DNA of 35,114 nucleotides, from NCBI RefSeq assembly GCF_014697375.1, contig NZ_JACJRS010000055.1:1-35114 (forward strand), read 5' to 3'. The stretch is from Phormidium sp. FACHB-1136. GTDB taxonomy: Bacteria > Cyanobacteriota > Cyanobacteriia > Phormidesmidales > Phormidesmidaceae. Each line of letters starts with the position of its first letter. The first letter of the stretch is position 1. This document shows, piece by piece, positions 15,511 through 34,537 of the stretch. The notes under the pieces are model-generated. The model ran no database searches, was not told where the DNA came from, and saw nothing but the letters and a program-made list of their open reading frames with translations. A program made the position numbers and the translations under genes.

Positions 15511-15536
15511 AGGGTGCTCTGGCCCGTTGCCCTGGG

Positions 15537-15815
15537 TTGGCCCTCACCCCCAGCCCCTCTCCCAGGGGGGAGAGGGGAGCCGGACAACCTTTCAAAGTCC
15601 CTCTTCCAAAATGGGCTACTAAGTACACACATCTCGCGAACCGTCCCCTTTTGTCGGTTTTGGCCCCCCTAGCCCCCCGATTTCGGGGGGGATCGAACCT
15701 CAAAGTCCCCCAGAATTGGGGGATTTAGGGGGCCGAAACGTGGGGAGATGAGTCAAACAGGACTTATGTGTACGCAGTAGCCCAAAATGGGAGAGGGATT
15801 TAGGGTGAGGGCCAA
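15537..15815. mobile_element. MITE-like element with terminal inverted repeats
   Basis: The ends are inverted copies: TTGGCCCTCACCC at 15537-15549 and its reverse complement at 15803-15815. The similarity continues inward: the left arm has CCCTCTTCCAAAATGGGCTA near 15600, and the right arm read in reverse has CCCTCTCCCATTTTGGGCTA, then a GTACACA tract on both sides. No transposase is inside, so it would be non-autonomous. A second palindromic repeat sits in its centre. A partial copy of one end recurs at 34977. Confidence 0.65.
15655..15739. repeat. GC-rich palindromic repeat nested in the element
   Basis: Inverted arms CGGTTTTGGCCCCCCTAG and, reading the other strand from 15739, CGTTTCGGCCCCCTAAA enclose two smaller hairpins (CCCCCCGATTTCGGGGGG and TCCCCCAGAATTGGGGGA). 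This dispersed type of C-run/G-run palindrome is common between cyanobacterial genes. Confidence 0.75.
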
Positions 15816-28806: not shown

Positions 28807-29799
28807 TTAATGTCGTTTTTGGTGCCAGTTCCAGGCGTGTTGGATAATGTCAAACAGACTAGGATAATTAACTTGCCATCCTAGATTCTGCTTGGCTTTC
28901 TCCTGGCTCCCGATCAATACAGGTGGGTCTCCAGGCCGACGCGGACAATATTCCACTGGAATCGGTTTTCCGGTGACTTCACGGGCCGTTTGAATGACTT
29001 CCTGGACAGAAAAGCCATTGCCGTTACTCAGATTAAAGATGTCACTCTGCTCACCCTGAAGAAGGTATTCCACCCCCAACACATGGGCTTGGGCTAAATC
29101 CATAACATGAATATAGTCTCTAATACAGGTGCCGTCCGAGGTAGGATAATCAGTGCCAAATACCGAGATAGAGTCCCTGTGACCCAACGCTGTTTGCAGA
29201 ACAAGCGGAATCAGATGCGTCTCAGGTAAATGATCCTCCCCTAACAGAGAATCAGGGTGAGCACCCGCCGCATTGAAATACCGAAAGATAACATATTGCA
29301 AACCATAGGCCTGATCGAAGTCAGCTAGAATACGCTCAACCATGAGCTTACTTGCCCCATAGGGGTTAATCGGCTTTTGAGCCTGATTTTCAGTGATAGG
29401 TACACTTTCAGGGATGCCATAGGTTGCACAAGTCGAGGAAAAGACAATGGATCTGACCCCCGCATCAACCATGGCTTCCAGTAAAGTTAGCGTCCCTACA
29501 ACATTATTTCGGTAGTATTTCCTAGGCTCCGTGACCGACTCCCCTACATACGCAAATGCAGCGAAATGAATGACGGCATCGATGGAATATTTTTGAAAGA
29601 TACTATCCAAGAGTTGACGATCACTAATATCACCAACAATCAACTCGGCTTTTAATGTAGATTCAACTAAGTCTCGGTGTCCGTAGACGAGATTATCAAT
29701 AATGACAACATTATACCCAGCTTTCTCAAGAAGAAAAACGGTATGTGAACCAATATAACCTGCTCCACCAGTAACCAGAATAGTAGAGGGCTGTATCAT
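28807..29799 (-). CDS. galE: UDP-glucose 4-epimerase
   Basis: Short-chain dehydrogenase/reductase-type epimerase that interconverts UDP-glucose and UDP-galactose for polysaccharide synthesis. The 330 residues have the NAD-binding loop GGAGYIGSH (11-19), DNLVYGH, catalytic SST at 121-123, the YxxxK pair Tyr147/Lys151 (PYGASK), and DYIHVMDLAQAH. A GGAG sits about 8 bases before the ATG. The DNA is visibly richer in A/T, with more ATA and TTA, than the flanking housekeeping genes, and the gene is bordered by repeat and transposase debris; horizontal transfer is plausible. Other NDP-sugar epimerases are close relatives, but the motifs fit GalE well. Confidence 0.93.
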   Translation of the reverse strand: MIQPSTILVTGGAGYIGSHTVFLLEKAGYNVVIIDNLVYGHRDLVESTLKAELIVGDISDRQLLDSIFQKYSIDAVIHFAAFAYVGESVTEPRKYYRNNVVGTLTLLEAMVDAGVRSIVFSSTCATYGIPESVPITENQAQKPINPYGASKLMVERILADFDQAYGLQYVIFRYFNAAGAHPDSLLGEDHLPETHLIPLVLQTALGHRDSISVFGTDYPTSDGTCIRDYIHVMDLAQAHVLGVEYLLQGEQSDIFNLSNGNGFSVQEVIQTAREVTGKPIPVEYCPRRPGDPPVLIGSQEKAKQNLGWQVNYPSLFDIIQHAWNWHQKRH

Positions 29800-29932
29800 C
29801 AGTAACTCCGTAGTGATGGATTTTTGAACTTGGACACGAATTAAAAGTCTTGGTCAGTTTAGTAATCTAGAAACGCTAATTCAAATTTCAGATGAGATTA
29901 TATGATACCAGACTAGATGTCATTAGACAGGG

Positions 29933-30200
29933 CTATTTCATTCTAAAAATGGTCTTGAGGGTATCCAGTCCAAATTTGCAGAGACGTTCAGCTTGCGCCA
30001 TATTGGAGAAGGCATTGCAGCGGGCAAGATTAATCGCGAAGTTACGGGCGACCGCGAAAATCTGCGGGAACTGGTGTATGCGGATGCGCGACGCATCTTC
30101 TCCCTAGGTCACACCGCGAACGGGTGCACCTTGTTTTCGACGCCCCAATAGCCCCGAATGCGCTGGGCAAAGGATTCCGCCGATGCGGCACTGATCTGCT
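29933..30200 (-). pseudogene. 3' remnant of an ISAs1-family transposase
   Basis: The minus strand reads SAASAESFAQRIRGYWGVEN-KVH, the conserved RxHWxxEN-xxH segment of ISAs1/H-repeat transposases. After a one-base frame change and an in-frame TAG, it continues GEDASRIRIHQFPQIFAVAR, then NFAINLARCNAFSNMAQAER and ends TLKTIFRMK at the TAG at 29935-29933. The matching family pattern is WGVENxxHWVLDVxFGEDASRIR. Only about 85 codons of the C-terminus survive. No inverted terminal repeats of an intact IS are visible. Confidence 0.75.
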
Positions 30201-30301
30201 AAAGTGGGATGCCTTGTAGGGCGCTTGCTATATGAGGGCTCTAGGCAACCAGAAATCAAGGATCATACTTTTGAAACCAGTGCCACCATTAACACCCTAA
30301 A

Positions 30302-30318
30302 ACGCTGCTAATTCAGCA
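30302..30318. repeat. short hairpin
   Basis: GCTGC and GCAGC flank a 7-nt loop (TAATTCA) just before a small plus-strand frame (30323-30562, MPISAIAQRLHAFANYV...). I do not recognise that frame and, because it lies in decayed sequence, do not call it as a gene. Confidence 0.35.
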
Positions 30319-30477
30319 GCCTATGCCTATCTCCGCCATTGCCCAACGTCTCCACGCCTTCGCGAACTACGTGGTCGAATACCTGAAGGGAGACGAAATT
30401 AGCAAAACGTCATCCATACTGGGCAAGAATTTGATGCGTCTCGCTATCACTAACACATCCTACGAACTAGGGGATTC

Positions 30478-30625
30478 CTACCACGCAGTCGGCTGGAACC
30501 TGAGGTCATTGGCTAGAGTGACCGTGTTCCCGGTTTGCTTCATCACAAACAGCCCTTGTTGATAGGCATAGCGGTCTATCCCCTCATCCATTTCAATCCC
30601 CGCCACCGCACCGTGGATTGGGTAA
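30478..30625 (-). pseudogene. C-terminal fragment of a cyanobacterial multicopy hypothetical protein
   Basis: In one minus-strand frame the DNA encodes HGAVAGIEMDEGIDRYAYQQ followed by GLFVMKQTGNTVTLANDLRF and QPTAW, then TAG at 30480-30478. This is the characteristic tail of a large family of cyanobacterial DUF3782-like hypothetical proteins (family name from memory). No upstream part is present; instead trpF occupies the adjacent DNA, and about 33 bases overlap the trpF 3' end in another frame. Confidence 0.65.
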
Positions 30626-31258
30626 GCACCGTAGTTGATGAAATAACTGTTGGACTAGGGCGAGATCTTTAATGCCGGGGCGGGTTTCTACGCCACTAGA
30701 GAGATCGATGCCGTGGGGGTGGAGGTTAGCGAGGGCTTGATGAATGTTGTCAGGGCGCAGCCCTCCGGCTAGGAACCAGGGACAGGGGGGGGCAAAGGTT
30801 TGTAGGGCTGACCAGTCTAGGGTGAGGCCCGTGCCGCCGAGGTGGTCGGGGTGGTAGGCATCCAGCAGCAGGGCATCCACAGTGGGGGCGTAGGTCAGGG
30901 CTTGGTCAAGATCCGCCGTGGTACGGACGCGGATGGCTTTAATGAGGCGGTGGTGGGGTAGGGCTTGGCGGAGGTGTTGACATTGTGCTAGGGTTTCGGC
31001 CCCATGGAGTTGCACTGTGTTGAGGCCCGTTTGCTGGACGACCGCGAGGAGGGGGTCTAGATCGGCGTTGGCAAAAACGCCCACGCTACCTCCCCGCCAG
31101 TCATGCTCGGCCAGGGTTGTCAGGATGGCGGCAATCTGGGCCGGGGCCACGTAGCGGGGAGATTGGGCCACGCAGATGAAACCGAGGTCGGTGGCTCCCA
31201 TGTGGGTGATGGCTAGAGCCTGTTCCGCCTGGGTGATACCGCAAATTTTCACCTGCAT
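30593..31258 (-). CDS. trpF: phosphoribosylanthranilate isomerase
   Basis: TIM-barrel enzyme of tryptophan synthesis that converts phosphoribosyl-anthranilate to CdRP. The 221 residues have the family start MQVKICGIT (Cys6 is the likely base), LGFICVAQSPRYV, VQLHGAE, LLLDAYHPDHLGGTG, FLAGGLRPDNI and the phosphate site GIDLSSGVETRPGIKD. The expected end is near VQQLFHQLR; the last about ten residues (CLPNPRCGGGD) are read through DNA of a decayed foreign gene fragment. The catalytic core is intact, so the enzyme is probably active. No other trp gene is nearby. Confidence 0.93.
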   Translation of the reverse strand: MQVKICGITQAEQALAITHMGATDLGFICVAQSPRYVAPAQIAAILTTLAEHDWRGGSVGVFANADLDPLLAVVQQTGLNTVQLHGAETLAQCQHLRQALPHHRLIKAIRVRTTADLDQALTYAPTVDALLLDAYHPDHLGGTGLTLDWSALQTFAPPCPWFLAGGLRPDNIHQALANLHPHGIDLSSGVETRPGIKDLALVQQLFHQLRCLPNPRCGGGD

Positions 31259-34318: not shown

Positions 34319-34537
34319 TCAGCCCTGGGCCAGATACGCGAGGATAGCGATCTTGGTAGCCGACATTCCGCAGGTTGACAGGGGTTCATTTCGGAGGTAG
34401 CACTGGCAGGCGGGAAAGCCCATAGGGCGAGTGATTTTGCGGCGCTCATCCGAGAGGTTGCTAACCTGCTGGGATGAGCCGATAGAGACCAAGTGAGTGG
34501 CCTGAAACGTCGGGCAATGCCCACTCCCCAGCCTCAA
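34319..34537 (-). CDS. small Cys-containing hypothetical protein (72 aa)
   Basis: The frame reads HCPTFQATHLVSIGSSQQVS, then DERRKITRPMGFPACQCYLR and NEPLSTCGMSATKIAILAYL. It uses codons like real genes here and has a plausible beta/alpha pattern with four Cys. It begins with TTG two codons after the methyltransferase-remnant stop and in the same frame. I cannot assign a family. It might be a real small gene, or an extension of the upstream reading frame past a stop. Confidence 0.4.
   Translation of the reverse strand: MRLGSGHCPTFQATHLVSIGSSQQVSNLSDERRKITRPMGFPACQCYLRNEPLSTCGMSATKIAILAYLAQG

Follow-up and report, generated by a model that had tools for sequence, protein, structure and literature searches.

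The window, by which we mean the whole stretch of 35,114 bases analyzed here, is the entire contig C212 of an assembly of 260 contigs (G000) and carries trpF, the gene of phosphoribosylanthranilate isomerase, followed by the end of a truncated nuclease-like gene and, further toward galE, by a transposase remnant and an interspersed repeat. trpF lies on the minus strand (30593-31258) and encodes a protein of 221 aa, which covers positions 1-192 of the 193 of Pfam profile PF00697 (E 2e-44), exceeds the curated cut-off of NF002298 (247.8 vs 215 bits) and is the sole trpF match in a genome-wide search of G000. A trpF match was found in 54 of the 57 genomes, the window's own included, which leaves 53 relatives; the closest of those searched belong to the same genus.

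The conserved core of TrpF is encoded at 30632-31258 (minus strand) and reaches to the last conserved leucine (residue 209) of ...LFHQL, as delimited by alignment with 29 relatives and by DNA matches to the trpF genes of relatives G014 and G021. Cysteine of the KICG motif and aspartate of LLLD, which we take to be the catalytic residues, align with the same letters in 1lbm and 1nsj. Solved structures align to residue 203 (1lbm, 1dl3), 211 (1pii), or 212 (4wui, 1v5x) of the window protein, so the barrel is essentially complete at the point where the core ends. Because of this, and because no second trpF match occurs in the genome, the protein is predicted to keep its enzyme activity, and probably does.

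The C-terminal tail of TrpF

The C-terminal residues of the window TrpF are ...QQLFHQLRCLPNPRCGGGD (ORF 30593-31258, minus strand; also given as ...LFHQLRCLPNPRCGGGD). Past the last conserved leucine, 12 codons follow (30596-30631) before the TGA stop (30593-30595), and this new tail, RCLPNPRCGGGD with its stop (30593-30631, minus strand), derives, according to its translation and the alignments, from nuclease-like gene sequence read out of frame. The frame one base later encodes NYGAYPIHGAVAGIEMDEGIDRYAYQQGLFVMKQTGNTVTLANDLRFQPTAW*, with its stop at 30478-30480. Reading both frames upheld the observation made from the sequence alone that the same DNA encodes the TrpF tail (CLPNPRCGGGD) and, in another frame, the tail of a multicopy family. 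The TGA that ends trpF is composed of the last base of an ATT codon (Ile) and the first two bases of a GAA codon (Glu) in the GIE motif of the fragment. The same out-of-frame TGA was found in all seven intact orthologs read (in G015, a further stop precedes it in the same frame), and any fusion in that frame would therefore terminate here at the latest.

The sequence-only reading had proposed that about ten residues were added to a working enzyme, which the tail lengths do not support. Past the last conserved leucine, the window protein has 12 residues, whereas the 29 relatives compared (of the 53 with a trpF match) have from 1 to 22, namely 1, 1, 2, 3, 4, 5, 5, 7, 8 (six relatives), 9, 10 (nine relatives), 12, 13, 14, 16, and 22. 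The tail was thus exchanged rather than lengthened: its sequence is new, and its length falls within the usual range. Among the 29 tails read, none combined the tail of the window with absence of the downstream fragment, the finding that would have spoken against the proposed link between the two.

A truncated nuclease-like gene and its relatives

The truncated gene occupies 30478-30636 on the minus strand and, as protein and DNA matches indicate, comprises the last ~52 codons and the stop codon of a gene that, measured against the 199-aa G014 protein, has lost ~147 codons from its 5' part. Neither a stop codon nor a frameshift occurs inside the 52 codons. Aligned to the multicopy family, the fragment peptide matches 13 other places in its own genome (E 1.5e-18 to 2.8e-10; a 14th at E 0.33), and these matches, together with that to the G014 gene, are far beyond chance, which confirms the family membership first seen in the downstream frame. 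When a 130-residue core was used as a query against the same genome, 13 copies spanned all 130 positions, the window fragment covered positions 75-130 only, one copy had positions 1-56 only, and two further matches were divergent (25-27% identity). The C-terminal segment of the family, GAVAGIE...DRYAY..GLFV...N...F.P..W, is present in the window fragment, which lacks the predicted nuclease core (EID...VEVKS) and the N-terminal coiled part and is a remnant, not a working family member. Full-length members resemble nuclease-fold proteins of the PD-(D/E)XK type, specifically DUF3782, a family label that is tentative because, of the three members tested, just one exceeds a Pfam cut-off by a narrow margin (PDDEXK_10, 21.4 vs 21.2 bits). 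For DUF3782, with a cut-off of 24.4, the best of the three scored 22.5 and none passed; no full-length member tested reached an NCBIfam cut-off, and a literature search on DUF3782 in cyanobacteria found nothing relevant.

Family matches at E values up to 1e-6 occur in 28 of the 56 relatives. Searched against the 57 genomes, the fragment has its best match in G014, to an intact 204-codon open frame with 80% identity at the protein level (E 3.1e-25) and 76% at the DNA level. The DNA match runs past the stop codon to 30398, and the 3' flank of the truncated gene (30398-30477, minus strand) is thereby colinear, apart from gaps, with that of the intact gene in G014. Of its 52 residues, the fragment has 41 in common with the G014 gene, 37-39 with those of ten other relatives, and 24-31 with the 13 own-genome copies. 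In a tree of 21 tails, it pairs with the G014 gene (support 92/91), although the bootstrap is a rough one that had not converged; the tree took in nine of the 13 own-genome tails and the 52-residue comparison all 13, the match at E 0.33 entering neither. Since the fragment is closest to the intact G014 gene and its 3' flank, and not to any own-genome copy, it is the 3' end, with flank, of a resident ortholog that is intact in relatives, and the description of it as foreign, made from the sequence alone, finds no support.

Over 78 positions of the N-terminal part of the G014 gene, the 13 own-genome copies agree with it at 36-58, vs 60-67 for the ten other relatives. Because the copies resemble it less than the genes of the relatives do, no 5' part of the ortholog was seen among these 13 copies; a 5' part may nevertheless survive as a short piece or in DNA missing from the assembly. 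A candidate for the reciprocal half, the truncated copy at G000:C217:61937-62104, was rejected, as its DNA identity to the G014 ortholog is 66% vs 76% for the window fragment, and core positions 57-74 are found neither in this copy (core 1-56) nor in the fragment. As a separate observation, the family copy at G000:C217:61737-62107 (L148 4238-4608) is damaged: it has an early in-frame stop, and its frame ends just past the IEVK motif. The gene downstream of it is presumably transaldolase-like.

The junction and the surroundings of trpF

The similarity of trpF to its relatives fades where the nuclease-like similarity becomes strong, around 30631-30643, and this narrow interval on the minus strand is the junction zone. 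Similarity to the G021 trpF ends at 30641 of the window in both DNA comparisons; that to the G014 trpF ends at 30631 in the stricter search, and looser scoring extends it to 30624 with seven poorly matching bases at the end. From the other side, similarity to the G014 nuclease-like gene begins weakly, with gaps, at 30661 and becomes strong at about CTACGG. The extent of 30478-30660 originally assigned to the fragment therefore needs trimming: it stands from 30478 to about 30636, whereas the DNA from 30644 to 30660 is trpF, reached by the nuclease-gene alignment only as a weak, gapped extension. The exchange of similarities, together with the position of the TGA inside the fragment, supports the earlier proposal that the fragment supplied the new trpF stop.

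The bases ACTAC (30631-30635) fit both parent genes, and the exact join cannot be placed within the junction zone for this reason. Five of the seven intact nuclease-like genes read carry ACTAC at the matching place and that of G014 carries AATAC; the G014 trpF has CTAC at the place matching the window ACTAC. Judging by the relatives' sequences, 3-5 bases of microhomology at the join are possible. The ortholog counts for the stop, ACTAC, and base substitutions cover seven of the ten orthologs (G003, G009, and G010 were left out).

On its 5' side, trpF is accompanied by psaK and a site-2-protease-like gene in all eight genus members for which longer stretches were available. The gene on its 3' side differs among these eight, the neighbors presumably including a methyltransferase, ilvC, htpX, a sensor, and others. 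The nuclease-like family is absent from the ~1.5-kb flanks of trpF in all 29 relatives and from 17 longer trpF loci (several of which are the same contig taken twice), and blocks of the window lying left of trpF have their counterparts at dispersed positions of the G014 genome. Between galE and trpF lies a decayed C-terminal remnant of an ISAs1-family transposase (29935-30103, minus strand), recognized by its matches: four plasmid records match it at 50-56% identity, three of them annotated as ISAs1 family transposase, and neither Pfam nor NCBIfam gave a match for this stretch. The same gap contains an interspersed repeat of ~100 bp (30186-30284), with ten further copies of almost full length elsewhere in the genome (75-89% identity), which resemble one another, and three short matches; a search of 29700-30750, and thus of the repeat as well, against Rfam gave nothing up to E 0.1. 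Given the differing 3' neighbors and the scattered G014 blocks, gene order beyond the 3' end of trpF changes from relative to relative, and in the window this stretch is filled with debris.

Other dispersed sequences were seen in passing. In G021 (L062), a short GC-rich repeat lies between trpF and a methyltransferase-like gene and has at least 37 matches in the window's genome. A repeat of ~80 bp at about 15530-15615 of the window has dozens of copies among the matches listed in the two relatives searched, and the dispersed repeat at 34360-34511 also occurs ~300 bp downstream of the intact G014 nuclease-like gene and at further places in the window's genome.

Two arrangements in relatives were considered as models of an earlier state and set aside. 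The gene beside trpF in G021, which we take to be a methyltransferase, lies in the window's genome on contig C23 near a contig edge, and no family match was found on C23. In G001, a single contig carries both the ortholog and trpF, convergently oriented and separated by ~19 kb. This layout is compatible with an inversion but, coming from one genome with 70% trpF identity, was given no weight.

Probable origin of the new trpF end and comparison with known systems

We consider it highly probable that an illegitimate chromosomal join fused the 3' end of trpF to the inside of a resident nuclease-like gene. Such a join would have placed the trpF 3' end against an internal point of a co-directional PD-(D/E)XK/DUF3782-like gene, about at the last conserved TrpF codon. 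The ribosome would then read the essentially complete barrel and 12 nuclease-gene codons out of frame and end at the TGA, and the original trpF tail and the ~147 5' codons of the nuclease-like gene would have been lost from the locus. The rearrangement may have been a deletion, an inversion, or of another kind; no genome among the relatives compared shows the locus as it was before the join, so deletion, inversion, and translocation are not told apart.

Regarding age, the fragment differs from the G014 gene at 6, 3, and 15 sites in codon positions 1, 2, and 3, respectively, and the third-position share of changes (15/24, 63%) is similar to that in intact pairs with G014 (60-71%; 5, 5, and 25 changes in the G014-G008 pair). 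Because this share is typical, and because the 52 codons are free of frameshifts and stops, the gene was probably still whole when much of this divergence arose. Relaxed constraint may already be visible, since 11 residues changed per 24 base changes in the fragment vs 10 per 35 in the G014-G008 pair, although these numbers are small. Our guess, from the same small numbers, is that the join is fairly recent.

Alternatively, a family copy of foreign or mobile origin could have been inserted into the trpF 3' end and later have lost its 5' part. The multicopy nature of the family, with 13 other copies spanning the whole core query, would suit such an insertion, as would the ISAs1 remnant and the repeat within the same galE-trpF gap; we nevertheless regard it as improbable, because the fragment is closest to the intact G014 gene with its 3' flank and not to an own-genome copy, and no sign of the old trpF tail was noticed beyond the fragment in searches not aimed at it. 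An assembly artefact, in which unrelated stretches were joined at a short match and trpF really ends elsewhere, seems less probable still. The assembly is a draft of 260 contigs with an estimated contamination of 3.02%, and there is short shared sequence at the join, but the junction lies 4.5 kb inside the contig, the trpF frame is open across it with a tail of usual length, and a break at this place is not unusual given that the 3' neighbor of trpF varies in the eight genus members.

The proposal we find hardest to credit is that the fragment is still translated, by a restart at TGAAATG after trpF that would yield a 37-aa nuclease-like C-terminal peptide. TGA and ATG are one base apart, a GGGG lies six bases upstream of the ATG, and the 52 codons are free of stops and frameshifts, an open frame that recent truncation would explain equally well; moreover, the peptide would be without the predicted PD-(D/E)XK core, and the same join occurs in none of the 29 relatives read. 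That such a peptide might interfere with the full-length copies in the cell, as the product of a newly arisen small gene tied to tryptophan synthesis, seems to us just as improbable.

With the illegitimate join as the preferred explanation, the locus suggests that within the genus both the sequence and the length of the TrpF tail can vary freely, and that what is left of another gene can act as a new gene end. It offers a clear but ordinary case of a conserved enzyme whose C-terminal tail was exchanged by rearrangement and leaves the broader picture unchanged. In the work by Fonseca et al. (2013; PMC3887535), loss of a stop codon with 3' elongation into the neighbor is described as giving rise to unidirectional overlapping genes. 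Like the overlaps described there, trpF has lost its own stop (deletion is one of the causes named) and uses an in-frame stop within a co-directional downstream gene. Unlike them, the downstream gene in the window has lost its 5' part, and the overlap is with a remnant and not between two working genes. A unidirectional overlapping pair has an intact downstream gene, and the nuclease-like gene here is truncated; the trpF/fragment arrangement thus works like a stop-loss overlap but is not one. The accessible portion of PMC4161906, a paper that cites Vakhrusheva et al. (2011), treats the movement of stop codons as routine in the evolution of bacterial genes, and here too the end of a coding gene moves, although the cases in that portion arise by mutation of start or stop codons and the change at the window trpF is a rearrangement joint. 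The excerpt available from PMC4494051 deals with the de novo origin of protein C-termini; residues previously untranslated in that frame become a C-terminus in both situations, but the source described there is noncoding, whereas the tail in the window comes from out-of-frame coding DNA of a truncated gene. On these comparisons, the window case would best be placed with the known loss of a stop codon followed by 3' elongation into downstream coding DNA.
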